Assembly: GCF_036127095.1 (NCBI RefSeq)
Contig: NZ_CP108006.1
Coordinates: forward strand, 930,001 to 994,000
DNA from: Streptomyces sp. NBC_00335
GTDB lineage: Bacteria > Actinomycetota > Actinomycetes > Streptomycetales > Streptomycetaceae
Reading direction: 5' to 3'
DNA: 64,000 nucleotides
How positions within the stretch are numbered: the first letter of the stretch is position 1; the number at the start of each line of letters is the position of its first letter. The notes under the pieces were generated by a model. It had not been told where the DNA came from and did not search any database. It saw only the letters and a program-made list of their open reading frames with translations. Shown here piece after piece: positions 36,596 to 45,309 of this stretch. Position numbers and translations under genes: made by a program.

Positions 36596-37147
36596 CTACG
36601 GGTGGTCGGGCACGTACTTGTAGCCCACGCGCCGCACCGTGGAGATGCGGCCCCGGTGGGCGGGGCCGAGCTTGCGGCGCAGCCGGGCCACGTGGACGTC
36701 GACGGTGCGGCCGTCGCCGACGTGCCCGTAACCCCAGATGGTCGAGATGAGCGCCTCCCGTGTGTGGACCGTGTGCGGGTGGGCCACGAAGTGGGACAGG
36801 AGGTCGAACTCCAGGTAGGTGAGCTCCAGTTCGCGGCCGGCGACCTCGACCAGCCGGCGTTCCCGGTCGACCTGAATGGCGTCGCCGGAGCGTACGGGCT
36901 CGAGGCGGGAGGCCGGTTCCGGATCGGGAGCCCGCTGCGGCCCGGGATCCAGGGGACGCATCTCCGGGCGCACACCGTGCGAGTTCATCAGCGCCACCGG
37001 GTCCACGTTCGCCGGCAAGAACACCAGGTATCCGATGCGGCCGCCGTGCGTTCCGTCGGCGGGGACGGCGGTCGGATGGTCACCGACCAGCTGGAGTCGG
37101 GAGGCCGGGAAGCGGCGGGTGGCGGGTGCGGGGAGCGCGGTGGTCAT
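36596..37147 (-). CDS. OmpR/PhoB-type winged-helix regulator without receiver domain
   Basis: 183 aa. The C-terminal 95 residues are a canonical OmpR-type DNA-binding domain: LTYLEFDLLSHFVAHPHTVH, TREALISTIWGYGHVGDGRT, VDVHVARLRRKLGP and TVRRVGYKYVP. No phosphoacceptor receiver domain precedes it; instead there is a short N-terminal domain (GGRIGYLVFLPANVDPVALM). Met 37147 has AAGGGG 8 bp upstream. It is preceded by operator A and a cysteine-containing leader peptide, and diverges from the sulfur genes, so it is probably a sulfur- or redox-responsive regulator (inference). Confidence 0.87.
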   Translation of the reverse strand: MTTALPAPATRRFPASRLQLVGDHPTAVPADGTHGGRIGYLVFLPANVDPVALMNSHGVRPEMRPLDPGPQRAPDPEPASRLEPVRSGDAIQVDRERRLVEVAGRELELTYLEFDLLSHFVAHPHTVHTREALISTIWGYGHVGDGRTVDVHVARLRRKLGPAHRGRISTVRRVGYKYVPDHP

Positions 37148-37354
37148 GATGAGCCCCTTCGGCTGCTCGGAGTGAACTACGGATGCCGGGCGTTCGGCCA
37201 CGACAGGGCAGGGCGGATCCATGACGGATCCGGCGGGGTGGCTCAGAGGGGTCGACGCCAGGAGGACCGCCACCGGGAGGAGAGGGTGGCGTACGGAGCG
37301 AAGCGGCGGCCGGATCGCCCGCGCGCGGAGTGGAAATGCCCTGCCGGAGAAGCC

Positions 37355-37438
37355 TTAGACGGGTCGGCAGACGGCGCTGGCGACGAGACGGAGGTCAACG
37401 TGCCTGCGGCGTACGAGCAACGGCTGCGACGGGGGCAT
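37355..37438 (-). CDS. Leader peptide A (RRHVDL type)
   Basis: 27-codon ORF encoding a peptide that ends RRRHVDLRLVASAVCRPV. The RRHxDLxRVxSxxC signature is that of short Streptomyces ORFs annotated as putative leader peptides next to sulfur and cysteine genes. It starts 42 bp from operator A and ends 207 bp before the winged-helix regulator. A single Cys codon lies near the end, as expected for a translation-sensing attenuator. The following leader contains an inverted GGATCC pair and other GC-rich repeats that could pair. Confidence 0.75.
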   Translation of the reverse strand: MPPSQPLLVRRRHVDLRLVASAVCRPV

Positions 37439-37480
37439 GGGCACATCGTGAGGTGCCCGACGGGCCCTCGTCAATACTTT

Positions 37481-37497
37481 CCTATCAATTAGATAGG
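37481..37497. promoter_or_regulatory. Operator A of a three-site palindromic family
   Basis: CCTATC-AATTA-GATAGG, a perfect 6-5-6 inverted repeat, flanked by TTT and GAA. It lies upstream of leader A on the minus strand. In that orientation CTATTC directly precedes it, as a -10 would. Sites B and C share the same 6-5-6 layout, with CCTAYC and GRTRGG arms and a GGGAAA edge. The 324-bp gap 37439-37762 holds operators A and B and no gene. Confidence 0.8.
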
Positions 37498-37650
37498 GAA
37501 TAGGAGCCGTCCGGTCGCACCTCCGGCGACCACCGACCCCGGCCGTGCCGGCCGGTGGGTCTCCTGACCTTGCGTCATCTCTCATCTCAAGACCGGACTG
37601 TCCGCCATGCGGTCAGGCACTTGCCGGGAAGGCCGCTTCGGGCAAGTATC

Positions 37651-37667
37651 CCTATCAATCCGATGGG
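37651..37667 (+). promoter_or_regulatory. Operator B, upstream of the flavin monooxygenase
   Basis: CCTATC-AATCC-GATGGG followed by AAA. TTGCCG (37621-37626), an 18-bp spacer and AGTATC (37645-37650) form a plausible promoter whose -10 touches the operator, so a bound protein would block RNA polymerase. Same layout as operator C. Confidence 0.75.
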
Positions 37668-37762
37668 AAAGGTGGGGATCCGGTGAAGCGCGGTTCGAGC
37701 ACCTCCCGCGCCACCCGGCGAGCCACCGGCCGAAGCCCCAACAATCTTCCGGAGTAGTCGAC

Positions 37763-37840
37763 ATGACCACCGCCACCCCCCATGGCACCGCTGTCCGCCC
37801 AGCCCCAGCGCCACGCGGCGACGCCCGGGTGTGTCGGTGA
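37763..37840 (+). CDS. Leader ORF B, overlapping the monooxygenase start
   Basis: 25-codon ORF, ATG 37763 with CGGAG 8 bp upstream, ending GDARVCR and TGA at 37838-37840. Its penultimate codon is Cys. The stop overlaps the GTG start of the monooxygenase (GTGA), so translation of the enzyme may depend on finishing the leader, that is on charged Cys-tRNA. It lacks the RRHxDL signature of leaders A and C. An arbitrary small ORF is possible but the ribosome site and overlap argue against it. Confidence 0.6.
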   Translation: MTTATPHGTAVRPAPAPRGDARVCR

Positions 37841-39051
37841 CTCCCATGCCGACGACACCGAGCACCATCGGCCGTCGGTCCGCCGACGAGCAGCGCCGGG
37901 CGGCGCTCCTGCGTACCGCCGACGACGTGGCGGACGATCTCGCCGCGGACGCCATCTTCCGCGACCGGGCGGGCAGGCCGCCGACCGACGAGGTGGCCCG
38001 GCTCCGGGAGGCCGGTCTGCTGACCGGCCTCACCCCGCCCGGGCCGGGCCGGGGAGCGGACTGGCGTACCGGATGCACCGTCATCCGGAAGCTCTCCACG
38101 GCGGACAGCTCCGTCGGCGACGTACTGGCCCGCCACTACGTGCACGCGTGGAGCGGACGCTTCTACGCGAACCACCACCACGCGACCGACCTCGAAGAGC
38201 AGTCGGTGCGCGAGCAGTGGCTGTGGACCGGCGCCATCCGCACCCCGGAGCCCGACGACGACACCGGCGGGCCGGACCTCACGCTGCAGCCCCGCAACAC
38301 CGGCTACGTGCTGAGCGGGCGCCGTTTCGTGGATACGGCGGTGGCCGTCGCCGACCAGATCGTGGTCGACGCCGTCTGCGCGGTGACCGGTGACGTCCTG
38401 GTCGTACGGATCCCACCCGGCGTTCCGCGCATGACCATCGAACCCGCCCACGACCGCCTCGGGCAGCGCGTGGTCGGCGCCGGCGAGGTGGCCTTCGACC
38501 GGGTCACCGTCACGCCCGGACAGGTGCTGGGCCGCCGCCCGTACGACGAGGAGCCGGCCGCTCCCTTCACCTCGCTCGCCGATCCGGTGCTCCGGCTGGC
38601 CCTGTGCCACGTCGGCCTCGGGATCGTCGAGGGCGCCCTCACCGAAGCGCGCGACCTCAGCAGGGGCGGCCACGCATACCGACTGCCCGGTGCGGACCCC
38701 GACCTCTTCCTGACGTACGGGGAACTCGCCTCCGCCGCCCAGACGGCCACCGCCGTGGTGGACCGGGCGACCGAGGTGATGGCGCGGGCCCTCGACACCG
38801 GTGCGCAGCTCGACGCCGAGGAACCCGCGGGCATCGCCGCCCTGGTCGCCACGGCCGAGACGGTGACGTCGAAGGCCGCCCTGCACGTCACGGCGCGCGT
38901 GCTGGAACTCGCCGACGCTCCCGGGCTGGACCGCTTCTGGCGCAACGCCCGCGTCCTGACGGCCCACCACCCTGCCGCGCACCGTCTGCGCTCCATCGGC
39001 GAGCACTACCTCAACGGCTCCCACCGTGCGGTGGCGGCGGCCTTCCACTGA
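37837..39051 (+). CDS. DszC/SfnB-like acyl-CoA-dehydrogenase-fold flavin monooxygenase
   Basis: 404 aa. Acyl-CoA dehydrogenase fold as in SfnB, DszC and related FMN-dependent monooxygenases of organosulfur use: helical N domain (RLREAGLLTGLTPPGPGRGA), mid beta domain (TGYVLSGRRFVDTAVAVADQ, PAHDRLGQRVVGAGEVAFDR) and C-terminal helices ending HRLRSIGEHYLNGSH. The catalytic Glu of true acyl-CoA dehydrogenases is not evident. I take GTG 37837; ATG 37846 is an alternative. Located beside Rrf2 and a sulfonate-binding protein and behind operator B, it likely oxidises a sulfur compound. Confidence 0.83.
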   Translation: MTPMPTTPSTIGRRSADEQRRAALLRTADDVADDLAADAIFRDRAGRPPTDEVARLREAGLLTGLTPPGPGRGADWRTGCTVIRKLSTADSSVGDVLARHYVHAWSGRFYANHHHATDLEEQSVREQWLWTGAIRTPEPDDDTGGPDLTLQPRNTGYVLSGRRFVDTAVAVADQIVVDAVCAVTGDVLVVRIPPGVPRMTIEPAHDRLGQRVVGAGEVAFDRVTVTPGQVLGRRPYDEEPAAPFTSLADPVLRLALCHVGLGIVEGALTEARDLSRGGHAYRLPGADPDLFLTYGELASAAQTATAVVDRATEVMARALDTGAQLDAEEPAGIAALVATAETVTSKAALHVTARVLELADAPGLDRFWRNARVLTAHHPAAHRLRSIGEHYLNGSHRAVAAAFH

Positions 39052-39159
39052 CCCGAGGCACCGCGCGGGGTGCTGATCCCCGGCCGCGGGGCGGGTGCTC
39101 GTACCCGCCCCGTGGCCGGCGGCGCACCCGCGGCGGACGCCGGGCGCGCAGGCATGCGG

Positions 39160-39165
39160 GATAAT
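39160..39165 (+). promoter_or_regulatory. -10 element of leaderless rrf2 mRNA
   Basis: GATAAT ends 6 bp before the Rrf2 ATG (39172) with no ribosome-binding sequence between, so transcription should start at or next to the A of the ATG. This is the standard pattern of leaderless actinobacterial genes. Confidence 0.75.
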
Positions 39166-39171
39166 GGCCAC

Positions 39172-39630
39172 ATGCGGATCTCAGCCAGGGCGGACTACGC
39201 GGTACGTGCCGCACTGCAGCTTGCCGCGTCACAGGATGACGGGCCGCTGAAGGCCGAGGCCATCGCCGACGCCCAGGACATCCCGCACAAGTTCCTCGAA
39301 GGCATCTTGAACGACATGCGCCGGGGCGGTCTCGTGCTGAGCCAGCGCGGGGGCAACGGCGGTTACTGGCTGGCCAAGCCCGCCCAGTCGATCAGCATCG
39401 CGGACGTCATCCGCGTCGTGGACGGACCGCTCGTCTCGGTGCGCGGGGTTCGCCCGCCCGATCTGACGTACACGGGCCCCGCGCAGGCTCTCCTCCCCCT
39501 GTGGATCGCACTTCGGGCCAACGTCCGCGAGATCCTCGACGGCGTGACGCTCGCGGACGTCGCATCGTCCGATCTGCCCCCCGACGTGTCCGCCCTGTCC
39601 CGCGCTCCCGACGCCTGGACCAATCCCTAG
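39172..39630 (+). CDS. Rrf2-family regulator lacking Fe-S cysteines (CymR-like)
   Basis: 152-aa winged-helix repressor. MRISARADYAVRAALQLAA is the Rrf2 N terminus; IPHKFLEGILNDMRRGGLV the recognition helix; GGNGGYWLAKPAQSISIADV the wing. The protein contains no cysteine at all, so it cannot bind the Fe-S cluster of IscR or NsrR types. Cysteine-free Rrf2 proteins such as CymR sense sulfur status through protein partners. It sits between the monooxygenase and the sulfonate-binding gene, near three copies of one palindrome, and is the best candidate to bind them (inference). Leaderless start at 39172. Confidence 0.9.
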   Translation: MRISARADYAVRAALQLAASQDDGPLKAEAIADAQDIPHKFLEGILNDMRRGGLVLSQRGGNGGYWLAKPAQSISIADVIRVVDGPLVSVRGVRPPDLTYTGPAQALLPLWIALRANVREILDGVTLADVASSDLPPDVSALSRAPDAWTNP

Positions 39631-39756
39631 CCCTCGCCGCACCCCTGTCCCACCCTCACCCCACCCCTGCCCCACCTGCGGTTTCTCATATTTCGAGATT
39701 CAACCGTCCAGAATGTGGTCAGTCTCTTGGGGCGCGCCTTCCTGTCTGCCAATATG

Positions 39757-39773
39757 CCTACCAACCAGGTGGG
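39757..39773 (+). promoter_or_regulatory. Operator C, upstream of leader C and ssuA-like gene
   Basis: CCTACC-AACCA-GGTGGG followed by AAAA. TTGGGG (39727-39732), an 18-bp spacer and AATATG (39751-39756) form the promoter, the -10 abutting the operator exactly as at site B. Confidence 0.75.
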
Positions 39774-39802
39774 AAAACTAGGAATCAGGGGGTGAGGTGG
39801 CC

Positions 39803-39901
39803 GTGCAGACACTGCAGCGCGCCGGCCGGATCCCGTCCCTGACCTCCCGCCGGCACATCGACCTGGTCCGTACGTCCAGCGCCATCTGTCAGCCTTCCTG
39901 A
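39803..39901 (+). CDS. Leader peptide C (RRHIDL type)
   Basis: 32-codon ORF whose C-terminal part reads SRRHIDLVRTSSAICQPS, a textbook match to the RRHxDLxRxSSAxC leader signature and closely similar to leader A. GAGG lies 5 bp before GTG 39803; an in-frame GTG at 39797 is possible. It begins 30 bp after operator C and precedes the sulfonate-binding gene by 253 bp that contain a hairpin. Likely couples Cys supply to downstream transcription or translation. Confidence 0.8.
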   Translation: MQTLQRAGRIPSLTSRRHIDLVRTSSAICQPS

Positions 39902-39964
39902 CACCGGCCGCAGGGCCCGGTACCCCGCGCAGGGCACTGCCGGGGCACTGAGCAGCCCCTCGCC

Positions 39965-39991
39965 GTCGGCCGGCCCGGCCCCTCGGCCGAC
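39965..39991 (+). promoter_or_regulatory. Possible attenuator hairpin downstream of leader C
   Basis: GTCGGCCG (39965-39972) pairs with CGGCCGAC (39984-39991), 8-bp stem and 11-nt loop, 64 bp after the leader stop and 163 bp before the ssuA-like start. No T-run follows. Position suits an attenuator or a ribosome-controlled fold; alternative pairings in this GC-rich DNA are likely. Confidence 0.45.
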
Positions 39992-40154
39992 ATCACCGCC
40001 CGCGCGCTCCCGTGATCCCGCCGCCCACGGCCGGGAACGGCTGCCGCACGTGCCGACGCCTCCGCGCCGCCGTCTCCGTACCGCCTCGTCCCCGTACTTG
40101 CCATCTCCGCATCACCGCATCTCCCCCGACCACCACCCGTGAAAGGACACCTCC

Positions 40155-41270
40155 GTGTCTGCCGCAAGACCGCTCACCACCCTGCGTGCCATCGCCCTGA
40201 CCGCTGCGCTCCCCCTGCTGCTCACCGCCTGCGGCTACGGTTCCGAGGCCAAGAAGGACGACGCTCCCGCGAAGGAGAACGTCGCCGCCGACGCCGGCAA
40301 GAAGCTGTCCGCCTCCGAGGTCCGCATCGGCTACTTCCCCAACCTGACCCACGCCACCGCGCTGGTCGGTCTCCAGGAAGGCCTGATCGCCAAGGAACTC
40401 GGCGCCACCGCCATCAAGCCGCAGTCCTTCAACGCCGGCCCGTCCGAGATCGAAGCCCTCAACGGTGGCTCTCTCGACATCGGCTTCATCGGCCCCTCCC
40501 CCTCGATCAACGCCTACGTCAAGTCCAAGGGCTCCAACCTGCGGATCATCTCCGGCTCCGCCTCCGGCGGCGTCAAGCTGGTCGTGAACCCGGCGAAGAT
40601 CAAGACCCTGGACGACCTCAAGGGCAAGAAGATCGCCACCCCCCAGAAGGGGAACACCCAGGACGTCGCGTTCCTCAACTGGATCGCCGAAAAGGGCTGG
40701 ACGGTCGACCCGGAGTCCGGCAAGGGCGACGTCTCCGTCGTCCGCACCGACAACAAGGTCACCCCCGACGCCTTCAAGTCCGGCTCCATCGACGGCGCCT
40801 GGGTCCCCGAGCCCACCGCCTCCAAGCTCGTCTCCGACGGCGGCTCCGTCCTCCTCGACGAAACCACCCTGTGGCCCGACAAGAAGTTCGTGATCACGAA
40901 CATCATCGTGTCCCAGAAGTTCCTCAAGGAGCACCCCGACGTCGTCGAGGCCGTGCTCAAGGGAACCGTGAAGACCAACGAGTGGATCAACGCCAACCCG
41001 GACAAGGCCAAGGCCTCCGCGAACGCCAAGCTCGCCGCCGAAGGCGGCAAGCCCCTCGACGCCAAGGTCATCGACCCCGCCTGGCCCAGCATCCTCATCA
41101 CCAACGACCCCCTCGCCGCAACCCTCAAGACCCAGTCCGAGTGGGCCGTCAAGGCCAAGCTCATCGAGAAGCCCGACCTGAGCGGCATCTACGACCTGAC
41201 GCTCCTGAACAAGGTCCTCAAGGCCGCCGGCCAGCCCGAGGTCTCCGACGCCGGACTCGGCGCCAAGTAG
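40155..41270 (+). CDS. ssuA: Sulfonate-type ABC transporter substrate-binding lipoprotein (SsuA-like)
   Basis: 371-aa surface lipoprotein. Signal with lipobox ALPLLLTACGYG (Cys about residue 26), then the NMT1/SsuA-type binding fold: VRIGYFPNLTHATALVGLQE, NAGPSEIEALNGGSLDIGFI, GPSPSINAYVKSKG and FKSGSIDGAWVPEPTASKLV. It would capture alkanesulfonates or taurine and deliver them to SsuBC. GTG 40155 follows GAAAGGA. No ATPase or permease gene follows; instead a terminator and an arylsulfatase. The import partners must be elsewhere, or substrate differs. Control by operator C and leader C is likely. Confidence 0.9.
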   Translation: MSAARPLTTLRAIALTAALPLLLTACGYGSEAKKDDAPAKENVAADAGKKLSASEVRIGYFPNLTHATALVGLQEGLIAKELGATAIKPQSFNAGPSEIEALNGGSLDIGFIGPSPSINAYVKSKGSNLRIISGSASGGVKLVVNPAKIKTLDDLKGKKIATPQKGNTQDVAFLNWIAEKGWTVDPESGKGDVSVVRTDNKVTPDAFKSGSIDGAWVPEPTASKLVSDGGSVLLDETTLWPDKKFVITNIIVSQKFLKEHPDVVEAVLKGTVKTNEWINANPDKAKASANAKLAAEGGKPLDAKVIDPAWPSILITNDPLAATLKTQSEWAVKAKLIEKPDLSGIYDLTLLNKVLKAAGQPEVSDAGLGAK

Positions 41271-41465: not shown

Positions 41466-43814
41466 GTGACCAGCCCGACCACCCCCACGCCCCCCGCCAC
41501 CCCGAACCGCCGTGATCCCTACGACGGCTTCGCCGGACGCGTGGGCCGTACCTTCGCCGAGTCCGTGCCGTCCTGGCAGCCGCCGCGCCGGCCCGCGGGC
41601 CGTGCCCCGAACGTCGTCGTGGTCCTCGTCGACGACATGGGCTACAGCGACATCGGCCCCTTCGGCTCGGAAGTCCCCACCCCCGTACTCGACGAACTGG
41701 CCGAGGGCGGCCTGCGCCTGGCCAACTACCACACCATGCCGCTGTGCTCACCCGCGCGCGCCGCACTGCTCACGGGTCTCAACCCGCACCGCGTCGGGTA
41801 TTCGACGGTCGCCAACTTCGACCCCGGTTTCCCCGGTTACGGCATGGAGGTCGGCGAGGACGTCCCCACCCTGGCCGAGCTCCTGCACGACGCGGGCTAC
41901 GCCACCTACGCCGTCGGCAAGTGGCACCTGACCCGCGACTCGGCCTCCAACGCCGCCGATGACCGGCGCAATTGGCCCCTGCAGAAGGGCTTCGACCAGT
42001 ACTACGGCGTACTGGAGGGCCTGACCAGCCTCTTCCACCCGCACCAACTGGTCCGCGACAACAGCCCGCTGGACATCGACGAACTGCCCGACGGCTACTA
42101 CTACACCGACGACATCACCGACCAGGCCATCTCCATGGTGAAGTCGCTCCGCGCACACGACCCCGACAAGCCGTTCTTCCTCTACGTGGCGCACAACGCC
42201 GTCCACGGCCCCCTCCAGGCGAAGCCCGCGGACATCGCACGTCAGCGCGGTCGCTACGACGGCGGCTGGGACGCCCTTCGCCGGACCCGCTTCGCCCGCC
42301 AGATCGCCGACGGCCTCTTCCCCGAGGGGACCGCCCTGCCGGACCGCAACTCCGAGGCGGGCTTCGACGTAGGCCCCTGGGATGAGCTGACGCCCGCGCA
42401 ACAGCGCCGCTACGCGCGCTACATGGAGGTGTACGCGGCGATGGTCGACAACATCGACCAGAACCTCGGCCGGCTCACCGTGACCCTGCGCGCCCTCGGC
42501 GAACTCGACAACACCATCATCGTCTTCACCTCCGACAACGGCGGAACCGGAGAGGGCGGCGCCGAGGGCACGCGCAGCTACTTCAGCCGCTTCGTCCACC
42601 AGCCCGTCCCGGACGACTGGAACGAGGACGTGGACCGGGACACCGACCTCATCGGCGGCCCGCAGAGCCTGGTGCACTACCCGCGCGGCTGGGGCATGGC
42701 CTCCAACACCCCCTTCCGGCTCTACAAGGGCCAGACCCACGCGGGCGGCGTGCGGGTGCCGTTCGTCATCTCCTGGCCCGAGGGCCTGCGCCGGGCCGAC
42801 GGCGACAGCGGGGTCCGCCAGCAGTACCAGTACGTCACCGACATCACCCCCACCCTCCTGGAGCTCGCGGGCGTACGGCGCCCGGAGCTGTGGCGCTCGC
42901 GGCCGGCCCAGGAACCGGACGGCGTCAGCTTCGCCCCCGTGCTGCACGACGGGCGGGCGCCCAGCGCCCACACCGAGCAGTACTGCGAGATGTCGGGCAA
43001 CCGCAGCTACTACCGCGACGGCTGGAAGCTGGTGACCCTCCACCGCCCCGGAACGCCGTACGACGACGGCGAATGGGCGCTGTACGACCTGCGCACCGAC
43101 CCGACCGAAACCCTGGACGTCGCCCGGGACCACCCGGAGGTGGTGAAGGAACTGGCAGCGGCCTGGGAGTCGGCTGCCTGGCGCAACGGCGTCTTCCCCC
43201 TCGCCGACGGCAGCGGCGCACTCGCCCGGCGGGGCCCCGCCGAGGAACGCTTCCACCGCCCCCTCACCCTGCTGGCGGGCACGCCCGAGCTGGAGCGCTA
43301 CCGCTCCTCCCGGCTCATCTCCTTCCGCTCCTTCGACATCACCGTCGAACTCGACGAACACGCCGCCCCGGACCAGGGCGTGCTGGTCTCGCACGGCGAC
43401 CAGGGCGGCGGCTACAGCCTGTACGTGGAGGACGGGCGGCTGCGGTTCGCCTACAACGAGTACGGAGAACTGCACGAGACCGACGCCGGTCCACTGCCCG
43501 CGGGCCGCCGGACGATCACGCTCTCGGCCGAGGCGGTGGAGGGCCTGCGCTGGGAGTTCCGCATCCTGCTCGACGGGGTGGAGACCGGCCGGTCGACCAG
43601 CGTGCACCAGCTCATCGGCATGGCCCCGCTGCAGGGCATCAGCGTGGGCGTGGACCGCAGGTCCCCGGTCTCCTGGCCGGTCTACGAACGCCACCGCAGC
43701 TTCCGCTACACCGGCGGCCTGCGCTCGGTGACCTACACCCCCGGCACGCAGGCGCCCTACGACCCGGCGCTCGTGGCCCGTGCACTGCGGGAGGCGGCGG
43801 CCGCCTTCGAGTGA
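41466..43814 (+). CDS. Arylsulfatase (formylglycine-dependent)
   Basis: 782-aa sulfatase that would release sulfate from aryl or alkyl sulfate esters. APNVVVVLVDDMGYSD contains the metal-binding DD; the modified residue is Cys94 in PLCSPARAALLTG (CxPxR, converted to formylglycine by FGE); YAVGKWHL supplies Lys/His; IIVFTSDNGGTGEG carries the second metal-site Asp/Asn; NTPFRLYKGQTHAGGVRVP follows. The last 200 residues are a beta-rich domain typical of large bacterial arylsulfatases. No signal peptide, so probably cytosolic. GAAGGAG 7 bp before GTG 41466. Fits the sulfur-scavenging role of the block; it converges with an MFS gene 19 bp away. Confidence 0.95.
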   Translation: MTSPTTPTPPATPNRRDPYDGFAGRVGRTFAESVPSWQPPRRPAGRAPNVVVVLVDDMGYSDIGPFGSEVPTPVLDELAEGGLRLANYHTMPLCSPARAALLTGLNPHRVGYSTVANFDPGFPGYGMEVGEDVPTLAELLHDAGYATYAVGKWHLTRDSASNAADDRRNWPLQKGFDQYYGVLEGLTSLFHPHQLVRDNSPLDIDELPDGYYYTDDITDQAISMVKSLRAHDPDKPFFLYVAHNAVHGPLQAKPADIARQRGRYDGGWDALRRTRFARQIADGLFPEGTALPDRNSEAGFDVGPWDELTPAQQRRYARYMEVYAAMVDNIDQNLGRLTVTLRALGELDNTIIVFTSDNGGTGEGGAEGTRSYFSRFVHQPVPDDWNEDVDRDTDLIGGPQSLVHYPRGWGMASNTPFRLYKGQTHAGGVRVPFVISWPEGLRRADGDSGVRQQYQYVTDITPTLLELAGVRRPELWRSRPAQEPDGVSFAPVLHDGRAPSAHTEQYCEMSGNRSYYRDGWKLVTLHRPGTPYDDGEWALYDLRTDPTETLDVARDHPEVVKELAAAWESAAWRNGVFPLADGSGALARRGPAEERFHRPLTLLAGTPELERYRSSRLISFRSFDITVELDEHAAPDQGVLVSHGDQGGGYSLYVEDGRLRFAYNEYGELHETDAGPLPAGRRTITLSAEAVEGLRWEFRILLDGVETGRSTSVHQLIGMAPLQGISVGVDRRSPVSWPVYERHRSFRYTGGLRSVTYTPGTQAPYDPALVARALREAAAAFE

Positions 43815-43833: not shown

Positions 43834-45027
43834 TCAGGATGCGGGCCGCACGGTCCGCATCCGCCCGTAGGCATACACGCACCCCGCGAGCGCGAGGTCC
43901 GACAGCAGCATGAAGCCGATCGAGTACGAGTCCTTCGCGCTGTAGATCGCGCCCATCACCAGCGGGGGCACGAAGCCCCCGAGGCCGCCCATCGCTCCGA
44001 CGATGCCCGTCACGCTGCCCACCTGTGGCTGCGGCGTCACCTGCGAGACCAGGGCGAAGACACTGCCGCTGGCCGTCCCGAGCCCGGCCGCCATCAGGAG
44101 CAGGGCGCACGTGCCGACGGGGTTCATCGCCGGGTCGAAGGCCTGCACGATCGCGAGGAGGGCCACCAGGCCCAGAGCCCCGGCCGTGACCTGCGCCGGG
44201 TGGATCCGGTCCGACAGCCAGCCGCCGATCGGCCGGAAGACCACCGTGACCAGGGCGAATCCCGCCGCCTTGGTACCGGCGTCGGTCGCGGACAGCCCGT
44301 ACCAGGTCTTCAGGTACGTCGGCAGGTACACCCCGAACGCGACGATCCCCCCGAAGCCGATCGCGTAGAGCGCGGCCAGCTCCCACGTCACCCGAAGGCG
44401 CCCCGCGCCGCGTAGGCGCGAGGCGAGCGAGGCCGTCGGTACGGGCCTGTCCGGCCGGTCCCTGAGCAGCAGGGCAGCCAGGACGGCGTACGCGGCGAGC
44501 GCCAGGGCCACCACGAGGAAGGGCAGGTCGGGGTCGTGCTTGGCGATGCGCGGTGTGACGTACCCGGACAGTGCGACACCGCCCATGCCCATCCCGAAGA
44601 CCCCGAGCGCGAAGCCCCGCCGGGCGGGCGGGAACCAGGAGTTGACGAGCGGGATGCCGATCGCGAACGTCGTGCCGCCCAGACCCAGCAGGAAGCCCAC
44701 CACGAGCGTCAGAGCGTAGCTCTGGCGTGCCGGGATCAGCAGCAGCACGGGCACGATGGTGAGCGCGGACACCACCGGGAACATCAGCCTCGCGCCGTAG
44801 CGGTCGGTCAGCGCTCCCACCGGGATCCGCCCGAGCGACCCGACCAGCACCGGCACCGCGACGAGCAGCGACTGCTGGAAGGAGGAGAGATGGAGCCGGT
44901 CCTTGTAGTCGCCGGCCAGCGGCGCGATCAGGTCCCACGCCCAGAAGGTGAGCGTGAACCCGAGCGTCGCCAGGGCCAGATTGCGGTACCCGGCGGACGA
45001 GGGCCGCGACGTCGACGTGGAGTCCAT
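43834..45027 (-). CDS. NarK/NNP-like MFS transporter
   Basis: 397-aa major facilitator with twelve helices. VGSLGRIPVGALTDRYGARL is the motif A loop in the form typical of nitrate/nitrite porters; the fourth/fifth helix block GLGGTTFAIGIPLVNSWFP and GVFGMGMGGVALSGYVTPRI also resemble that family. It may import nitrate or an organic anion; proximity to sulfur genes leaves a sulfonate or sulfate-ester substrate open. Start Met 45027 (DSTSTSRPSS). Divergent from TetR across 282 bp that contain a palindrome. Confidence 0.8.
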   Translation of the reverse strand: MDSTSTSRPSSAGYRNLALATLGFTLTFWAWDLIAPLAGDYKDRLHLSSFQQSLLVAVPVLVGSLGRIPVGALTDRYGARLMFPVVSALTIVPVLLLIPARQSYALTLVVGFLLGLGGTTFAIGIPLVNSWFPPARRGFALGVFGMGMGGVALSGYVTPRIAKHDPDLPFLVVALALAAYAVLAALLLRDRPDRPVPTASLASRLRGAGRLRVTWELAALYAIGFGGIVAFGVYLPTYLKTWYGLSATDAGTKAAGFALVTVVFRPIGGWLSDRIHPAQVTAGALGLVALLAIVQAFDPAMNPVGTCALLLMAAGLGTASGSVFALVSQVTPQPQVGSVTGIVGAMGGLGGFVPPLVMGAIYSAKDSYSIGFMLLSDLALAGCVYAYGRMRTVRPAS

Positions 45028-45231
45028 CCCGTCAGTCAAGACGCCCCGGGTCGTCCGGTCGCGCAGGACTGCGCCAAAAGGACCACGGACGCCGACCCCG
45101 GCAGGGCCTCCGGTCTCCCCTTGCACCGGACGCCGTTCGCCTTCGACCGGCGCCACGTGACTCCGCCCGGGCCTCTCCATCGCCATCGACTTGGCGGAGG
45201 GAGACCGACCATCGCAACGCCTCTTGCATGT

Positions 45232-45251
45232 TCTATGCCATACACCATAGA
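45232..45251. promoter_or_regulatory. Inverted repeat in the tetR promoter
   Basis: TCTATG (45232-45237) and CATAGA (45246-45251) flank an 8-bp centre in a short AT-rich patch. It lies 58 bp upstream of the TetR start and 205 bp from the MFS start, a fitting operator for autoregulation. The rest of the 282-bp gap has no gene. Confidence 0.6.
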
Positions 45252-45309
45252 TTACCGACAGGTAGCTCACGCGGTGGGCCGCGTCGTCGTCGCGAGGGTG
45301 GTGGAGCGG

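Follow-up and report, generated by a model that had tools for sequence, protein, structure and literature searches.

Which factors might control the compact group of sulfur genes at positions 36596–41270 of a 64,000-nucleotide stretch of Streptomyces sp. NBC_00335 (contig NZ_CP108006.1, positions 930,001–994,000; referred to below as the window)? The block contains, in this order, a winged-helix regulator gene on the minus strand, a DszC/SfnB-like flavin monooxygenase gene, an Rrf2-family regulator gene and a gene for an SsuA-family lipoprotein, and is followed by a sulfatase gene. A first-pass annotation had named the four genes of the block, including the Rrf2 gene inside it, and profile matches bear this out. 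Judged from its sequence, the block is rather probably a local sulfur regulon in which a CymR-like Rrf2 regulator is combined with cysteine-responsive leader peptides. The first layer of this arrangement is represented by three copies of one palindrome, here termed operators:

37481..37497, minus strand: operator A, CCTATCAATTAGATAGG, followed by GAA, upstream of the -35 hexamer of the divergent winged-helix gene
37651..37667, plus strand: operator B, CCTATCAATCCGATGGG, followed by AAA, over the predicted transcription start
39757..39773, plus strand: operator C, CCTACCAACCAGGTGGG, followed by AAA, over the predicted transcription start

All three 17-bp sites lie where the first-pass annotation had placed them and match CCTAYC-N5-GRTRGG exactly, with GAA, AAA and AAA, respectively, as the next bases. 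When one mismatch is allowed, six strand-matches are obtained within the window, all at A, B and C; 100 shuffles of the window gave a mean of 1.38 matches, and a single shuffle reached six. Over the whole genome (9.0 Mb), five strand-matches to the exact pattern are obtained, corresponding to A, B, C and one further place (C1:2470587), compared to three for the reversed pattern as control. The fourth place, located between two divergent ORFs (open reading frames), was taken as chance because the control pattern gave three matches. A wider regulon in this genome was likewise rejected, as TCCTA-N9-TAGGRA with one mismatch yielded nine strand-matches vs 53 for its reversed control; three of the nine are at A and B and the other six are not trusted.

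The block also encodes the candidate binding protein:

39172..39630, plus strand: Rrf2-family regulator of 152 aa with ATG start, free of cysteine (TIGR00738, 109.6 bits, cut-off 73.3; PF02082, E 5.1e-33)

Of the 101 genomes sampled from the genus, 56 including that of the window have an orthologue of this regulator, counted at E ≤1.5e-58 plus one split copy. The split copy (genome G040, locus L091) consists of two adjoining matches on opposite strands. For comparison of the orthologous loci we used 57 loci from the sampled genomes, two of which carry two copies, together with 80 named loci; sites with one mismatch were listed when flanked by AAA/GAA or TT. Across these loci the palindrome is better written as CCTA-N9-TAGG, often with GAA or AAA next. 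Its exact form is found at 50 of the 80 named and 23 of the 57 sampled loci and at none of the 23 loci of a ca. 45–55% identical Rrf2 paralogue, the corresponding numbers for the control ATCC-N9-GGAT being 13, 7 and 4. After removal of seven duplicates and with the window included, 70 of 131 distinct loci contain the palindrome (99 sites), compared to 20 loci and 20 sites for the control; the conservation at orthologous loci on which the first-pass annotation had staked its proposal is thus observed. Most sites are positioned either ca. 550 bp past the Rrf2 start or ca. 1.3–2.6 kb ahead of it.

The same annotation had suggested a scan of Streptomyces genomes for co-occurrence of the palindrome with this Rrf2, which gave an association: a relaxed pattern is present in 43 of the 56 genomes with an Rrf2 orthologue vs 6 of the 45 without (Fisher p 1.2e-10, a value inflated by shared descent of the related genomes and obtained with a pattern built from rrf2-locus sites partly in the same genomes). 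The reversed relaxed pattern occurs in 22 of 56 and 14 of 45 genomes, respectively (p 0.41). Outside the genus, three of the genomes sampled from other genera of the family (G107, G111 and G132) also carry Rrf2 orthologues, with 74–82% identity; the exact site accompanies them at two loci (L288, L289) and is missing at one (L287).

Further sites occur beside sulfur genes. Some genomes with a 64–70% identical orthologue carry one site elsewhere in the genome; a DszC-like monooxygenase (L211) or a sulfatase (L233) is encoded downstream of such remote sites, and those at L226 and L229 precede proteins which start like TauE/SafE sulfite exporters. At L222, a TauE/SafE exporter recognized by Pfam has its site adjoining rrf2. 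The remote site at L212 is followed by a leader with the motif HIDLxRVCSA and then by a protein with a GST C-terminal domain, and similar starts of the downstream protein are seen at L214, L216, L220 and L225. The earlier view that links the palindrome with the Rrf2 gene and with sulfur genes therefore stands insofar as it concerns orthologous conservation, co-occurrence and further sites by sulfur genes. In the genomes lacking the orthologue, two of the six matches are found at or upstream of a dihydrodipicolinate-synthase-family gene (L206) and a nitronate monooxygenase gene (L223), as chance would give. An SsuE-family gene near the L204 site was not counted as a target, the A-type promoter (see below) of that operator appearing oppositely oriented. 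As a separate observation, the operator form CCTAGYGAANNGGTRGG stands directly ahead of a HIDLxRVCSA leader at L212, L213, L214, L216, L219, L220 and L225, all in genomes with an Rrf2 orthologue.

The operators are embedded in predicted promoters of two kinds:

37445..37474, minus strand: predicted promoter A, -35 TTGACG (37474–37469), N18, -10 CACGAT (37450–37445)
37621..37649, plus strand: predicted promoter B, TTGCCG, N17, AAGTAT, conserved in 19 aligned rows
39727..39755, plus strand: predicted promoter C, TTGGGG, N17, CAATAT, conserved

For B and C, the first-pass annotation had described a TTG-type -35 hexamer 18 bp upstream of a -10 hexamer touching the operator; the upstream TTG-type hexamer stands, while the spacer is 17 bp long and one base separates the -10 hexamer from the operator. 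Promoter A, absent from that description, is conserved in an alignment of 12 rows and lies on the minus strand, 6 bp downstream of operator A. When strict promoter rules were applied to 176 deduplicated palindromes, 49 were assigned to the A type and 36 to the B/C type. In the 49 A-type promoters the distance from operator to TTGAC is 6 nt in 47 cases and 7 nt in two, and TTGAC is followed, mostly after 18 nt (39/49), by CACGAT, CAGGAT or similar. Operator A, held at 6 bp from the -35 hexamer, thus sits at the position predicted for an activator. With two fixed operator geometries, a model of plain repression cannot hold for every one of the three promoters.

Upstream of the -35 hexamers of B and C we found a double element which had previously been missed:

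37578–37592 (E1) and 37600–37614 (E2), plus strand: double element of promoter B
39684–39698 (E1) and 39706–39720 (E2), plus strand: double element of promoter C

It is composed of E1 (TCTC-N7-GAGA), a gap of 7 bp and E2 (GTCC-NNN-AT-NN-GRNC). E2 is present at 52 of the 57 C loci; its start is 51 bp from operator C at 48 loci and 52 bp at two (50/57 in total), the remaining two showing other distances. For operator B, the distance is 51 bp in 16 of the 19 regions compared. E2 ends 6 bp ahead of the -35 hexamer and therewith takes the same position as the operator at A. Genome-wide, the E1–E2 pair occurs four times with at most one mismatch (control 0), namely at B, at C, upstream of the leader that precedes an alkanesulfonate-monooxygenase-like gene, and at one further place. 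The pattern with three mismatches was discarded as too loose (680 and 638 matches vs 245 and 253).

The second layer consists of the short ORFs with a cysteine codon near their end which the first-pass annotation had reported after each site; all three are confirmed and conserved. Leader C is followed by a possible Rho-loading stretch:

37355..37438, minus strand: leader A, 27 aa, MPPSQPLLVRRRHVDLRLVASAVCRPV, ending VCRPV (NF042934, 28.0 bits, cut-off 27)
37763..37840, plus strand: leader B, 25 aa, MTTATPHGTAVRPAPAPRGDARVCR, ending VCR, its stop codon overlapping the next start as GTGA
39803..39901, plus strand: leader C, VQTLQRAGRIPSLTSRRHIDLVRTSSAICQPS, ending ICQPS (NF042934, 38.1 bits on 39797–39898, cut-off 27)
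39902..40154, plus strand: C-rich, G-poor interval, a possible Rho-loading stretch (C 0.49, G 0.27)

The ATG of leader A lies 6 nt past the -10 hexamer, so that a leaderless mRNA is predicted. Its cysteine-containing peptide, M[PS]PSQPLLVRRRHVD[LF]R...CRP, is kept at 11 of the 12 aligned loci, the rows having been selected without reference to the cysteine codon; at the twelfth (L146) the leader continues in frame into the winged-helix regulator. Leader B matches neither NCBIfam nor Pfam. The resulting doubt that it is a real ORF was dropped given its conservation: a cysteine at the penultimate codon (TGT or TGC) together with the GTGA overlap is seen at 14 of the 15 distinct loci having the short ORF, which is 23–29 residues long; L124 has neither feature, and at three loci no start was found by the rule applied. 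Leader C is readable at 52 of the 57 C loci, the other five being without an RRHxDL frame by our rule, and the cysteine occupies the same place in all 52. Three codons separate it from the stop in 47 of these and 7, 8 or 33 in the other five. The cysteine codon (39887–39889 in the window) is TGT in 51 of the 52 leaders; coding stretches matched to them, taken from the named loci, use TGC more often than TGT (190 vs 54). This bias may reflect either a rare codon or a constraint at the RNA level.

Leaders A and C share the motif RRH[IV]D[LF]-x7-C, in which the codons change synonymously. In leader C the two arginines, the histidine and the aspartate of RRHID[LF] are nearly invariant and their codons vary (first arginine CGC 29, CGT 23; second arginine CGC 25, CGG 19, CGT 6, CGA 2; leucine mostly CTC or CTG), which argues that the motif is kept as peptide. 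This conservation of the A and C leaders points to the nascent chain as a putative determinant besides the supply of Cys-tRNA. Bases near the cysteine of leader C are also conserved, e.g. GCC in 48 of 48 alanine codons, which an RNA role could explain. Of 82 RRHxDL...C leaders, 65 have an operator with no more than one mismatch upstream of them on the same strand at a distance of up to 350 nt, 3.2 being expected from coverage. In the interval after leader C, cytosine exceeds guanine at all 47 loci measured among the 52 with a leader (means 0.47 and 0.27; odd values of 0.23 and 0.12 at L194).

The leader family extends beyond the block. A genome search with NF042934, for which 150 of 290 candidates were scored, gave at least 12 matches at E <1e-3 and at least nine over the cut-off; in 10 of 14 control genomes matches at E up to 10 were obtained, none of them over the cut-off. 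Leaders A and C are among the 12, A scoring 26.4 bits in this search and thus below the cut-off. For the other ten, the first long ORF downstream was considered, that at L242 being unreadable. These ORFs include genes for a sulfatase, cysteine synthase, cysteine dioxygenase, a nitrite/sulfite reductase-family protein, two luciferase-like monooxygenases, one of them alkanesulfonate-monooxygenase-like, and a dicarboxylate-type symporter. Exact and one-mismatch genome scans detected no operator at these ten leaders; the leader layer is therefore wider than the Rrf2 layer.

The proteins encoded around the operators are the following:

36596..37147, minus strand: winged-helix regulator with an OmpR-type C-terminal DNA-binding domain (PF00486, E 9.7e-23, the sole Pfam match)
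37837..39051, plus strand: DszC/SfnB-like flavin monooxygenase of the acyl-CoA dehydrogenase fold, with a conserved GTG start at 37837
40155..41270, plus strand: SsuA-family sulfonate-binding lipoprotein (TIGR01728, 202.3 bits, above the cut-off of 163.5)
41466..43814, plus strand: sulfatase (PF00884, E 6.3e-61)

In the winged-helix regulator no receiver domain was matched by the Pfam search; its gene adjoins the DszC/Rrf2 genes at several orthologous loci. The monooxygenase remains below the cut-offs of the DszC and SfnB equivalogs (NF043015, 141.1 bits, cut-off 850; TIGR04022, 135.2 bits, cut-off 430.9) and thus appears to be a relative of these enzymes outside their membership. The sulfatase gene possibly shares an operon with the SsuA-family gene. 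Between 36500 and 41500 no Rfam match was obtained up to E 1. Beyond the sulfatase gene, a NarK-like major facilitator superfamily transporter is encoded at 43837–45252 on the minus strand (194.9 bits, below the NarK cut-off of 311.7).

From these data we infer the binding of Rrf2 to the operators, its effector, the sign of its action at each promoter, the cysteine response, the translational coupling and the Rho step, and propose the following scenario. The Rrf2 regulator from inside the block would bind CCTA-N9-TAGG. At B and C, positioned over the transcription start, it would block RNA polymerase during sulfur sufficiency and thereby control the DszC-like monooxygenase and probably rrf2 itself on the B transcript, and the sulfonate-binding protein on the C transcript. 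A separate activator probably binds E1–E2 just upstream of the -35 hexamers of these two promoters. At A, in turn, Rrf2 bound 6 bp upstream of the -35 hexamer probably contacts RNA polymerase and activates the winged-helix gene. The second layer would act on the transcript, where each promoter is followed by a short leader peptide with a cysteine codon near its end. If cysteine is plentiful, leaders A and C would be completed and the long C-rich interval exposed to Rho or a similar stop; if it is scarce, a ribosome stalled at the cysteine codon would allow expression of the operon. Leader B would be translationally coupled to the monooxygenase. The two-layer control suggested by the first-pass annotation is thereby partly supported, its outline being correct and its account of the operator geometry and of the number of layers incomplete.

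Among characterized regulators, the Rrf2 described here would work most like CymR, whose DNA binding is governed by its complex with CysK. In sequence, the solved structures closest to it are 4cic and then those of CymR, 3t8r and 2y75, and the score against the CymR equivalog NF047409 (90.7 bits) is below the cut-off of 195. Common to both systems are the Rrf2 family and, by sequence, targets of the sulfonate and cysteine-supply type, here SsuA, TauE, sulfatase and DszC-like proteins; unlike CymR, the system in Streptomyces has two operator geometries and leader peptides under all three promoters of the block, a comparison which leaves the operator letters aside. CymR is the Rrf2-family master repressor of cysteine metabolism in Bacillus subtilis and Staphylococcus aureus. 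It has sulfur and sulfonate genes as targets (PMC3828012, PMC2869319), and the B. subtilis protein carries no Fe-S cluster (PMC9338935). Among orthologues of the present Rrf2, 105/119 and 18/19 (duplicates included) are entirely free of cysteine, compared to 6/23 paralogues; the absence of cysteine in the window protein, which the first-pass annotation had noted, is confirmed from its translation. The Fe-S cluster regulators of the family, IscR, NsrR and RirA, have conserved cysteine ligands. A cysteine-ligated Fe-S cluster is therefore precluded, and the protein falls outside the IscR/NsrR/RirA type. IscR is an Rrf2 regulator able both to repress and to activate, which resembles the single Rrf2 predicted here to act from operators placed for repression or for activation; unlike IscR, the present Rrf2 is mostly cysteine-free in its orthologues and has organosulfur genes as targets.

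Within the actinobacteria, IGTS8_peg394 of Rhodococcus qingshengii IGTS8, seen in dibenzothiophene cultures, is a CymR/Rrf2 sulfur-regulator candidate (PMC8557817); the section describing it states that its gene is not adjacent to sulfur genes and gives neither an operator nor a leader. The likeness, which is one of description only, is that of an actinobacterial Rrf2 proposed for sulfur. The leaders have counterparts in the mycobacterial polycysteine leaderless ORFs of Canestrari 2020, as cited in PMC9094748, with which they share short cysteine-containing ORFs, a leaderless start (predicted at A) and sulfur genes downstream. They differ from these by usually having one cysteine codon instead of a cysteine run and by the RRHxDL motif, and reach at most 23.3 bits with the Ms4527A and Ms5788A models (cut-off 45). 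To NF042934, whose cut-off A and C reach as single proteins and with which B has no match, the present data add the operator linkage and the fixed spacing. Among the matches listed from the open-licence PMC literature, a scope outside of which most subscription papers lie, this Rrf2 operator and these leaders are undescribed.

Several observations weigh against the proposed two-layer regulon. The exact palindrome is missing at 61 of the 131 distinct loci, 13 of the 56 genomes with an orthologue are without the relaxed pattern (some have weaker forms), and at 16 of 19 loci with 64–70% identical orthologues no nearby site was found, even in relaxed form. Moreover, 91 of the 176 palindromes fit neither promoter rule. 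With regard to the leaders, a single cysteine codon is a weak tRNA sensor. The geometry of leader B is unsuited to induction by stalling, and at seven distinct loci this leader runs in frame into the monooxygenase, sharing its start. As it overlaps the start of the gene (GTGA), a stall at the cysteine codon would more likely lower than raise expression, since a stalled ribosome would cover the next start. The composition of the interval after leader C is partly shared by coding strands at the same loci, where cytosine also exceeds guanine in 50 of 50 SsuA, 60 of 64 DszC and 72 of 80 Rrf2 genes, albeit more weakly (0.37/0.31, 0.39/0.36 and 0.38/0.33, respectively). Finally, RNAalifold revealed no consensus structure after leader A (z -0.3; 9 of the 12 aligned rows) or leader C (z -0.6; 12 of the 52 leaders) relative to column shuffles. 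Attenuation by an intrinsic terminator hairpin is not supported, as no conserved hairpin was detected after either leader in these rows, and a Rho-type step is therefore preferred over a hairpin attenuator.

The alternative that survives best concerns the signal read by the leaders. They might be arrest peptides similar to TnaC, in which the RRHxDL...C nascent chain senses cysteine or a metabolite and not the supply of Cys-tRNA. TnaC is an arrest peptide coupled to Rho-dependent attenuation, and the predicted likeness lies in a conserved nascent peptide at the leader end and a C-rich stretch next to it, the peptide itself being different. We regard this as possible, if on the unlikely side: the constancy of RRHIDL despite codon changes, the motif and cysteine distance common to leaders A and C, which differ in other respects, and the C-rich, G-poor stretch after leader C argue for it, whereas the conservation of bases near the cysteine (GCC in 48/48 alanine codons, TGT in 51/52 leaders) leaves room for a role at the RNA level. 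Doubtful, in turn, is the most elaborate version of the proposal as a whole, in which an undescribed actinobacterial regulator with two operator geometries would be combined with an RRHxDL arrest-peptide cysteine switch controlling Rho-dependent termination and with an activator layer at E1–E2.

Rather unlikely, in our view, is control by a transcription layer only, with leaders that are ordinary small ORFs acting in mRNA stability or translational coupling and insensitive to cysteine. Such a role would agree with the lack of a conserved RNA switch, with the rule of one cysteine codon per leader and with the coupling of leader B to its gene or, in some species, its fusion with it, as also found once for leader A. 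It does not account for the cysteine, whose position is constant in 52 of 52 C leaders and 14 of 15 B leaders despite variation of its neighbours, especially in B, or for the occurrence of the same leader family ahead of sulfur genes elsewhere in the genome; in addition, related mycobacterial cysteine-rich leaders are reported to respond to cysteine (Canestrari 2020, as cited in PMC9094748).

It is quite improbable that the local winged-helix regulator or some different factor recognizes the palindrome and that Rrf2 is a mere neighbour, even though the winged-helix gene adjoins operator A and several loci show an operator ahead of a winged-helix–DszC–Rrf2 series. A close local copy of the winged-helix gene (≥70% identity) is listed for only 6 of the 101 genomes, longer copies of 53–57% identity in few more, and this narrow distribution spoke against the protein as the binder. 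Some relative at E 1e-30 occurs in 94 of the 101 genomes and cannot explain the pattern either, while the palindrome tracks the Rrf2 orthologue across genomes and its two-fold symmetric 17-bp form suits an Rrf2 dimer. A partial, 64% identical relative of the winged-helix regulator was noticed at L295 (4856–5223), near what is presumably a glutamine-synthetase-like gene. That the palindromes arose by chance in AT-richer promoters, as a sample of just three sites and the one shuffle in 100 with six matches might suggest, is practically negligible and refuted by their genome-wide rarity, their conservation at orthologous loci and their co-occurrence with the Rrf2 orthologue.

For the leader family itself, the single-cysteine RRHxDL leaders would, on the same condition of a correct proposal, provide a test case for NF042934, which is annotated merely as "putative leader peptide". 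If the proposed regulon proves true, Streptomyces would gain a defined regulator, an operator and a set of targets for the use of organosulfur compounds.

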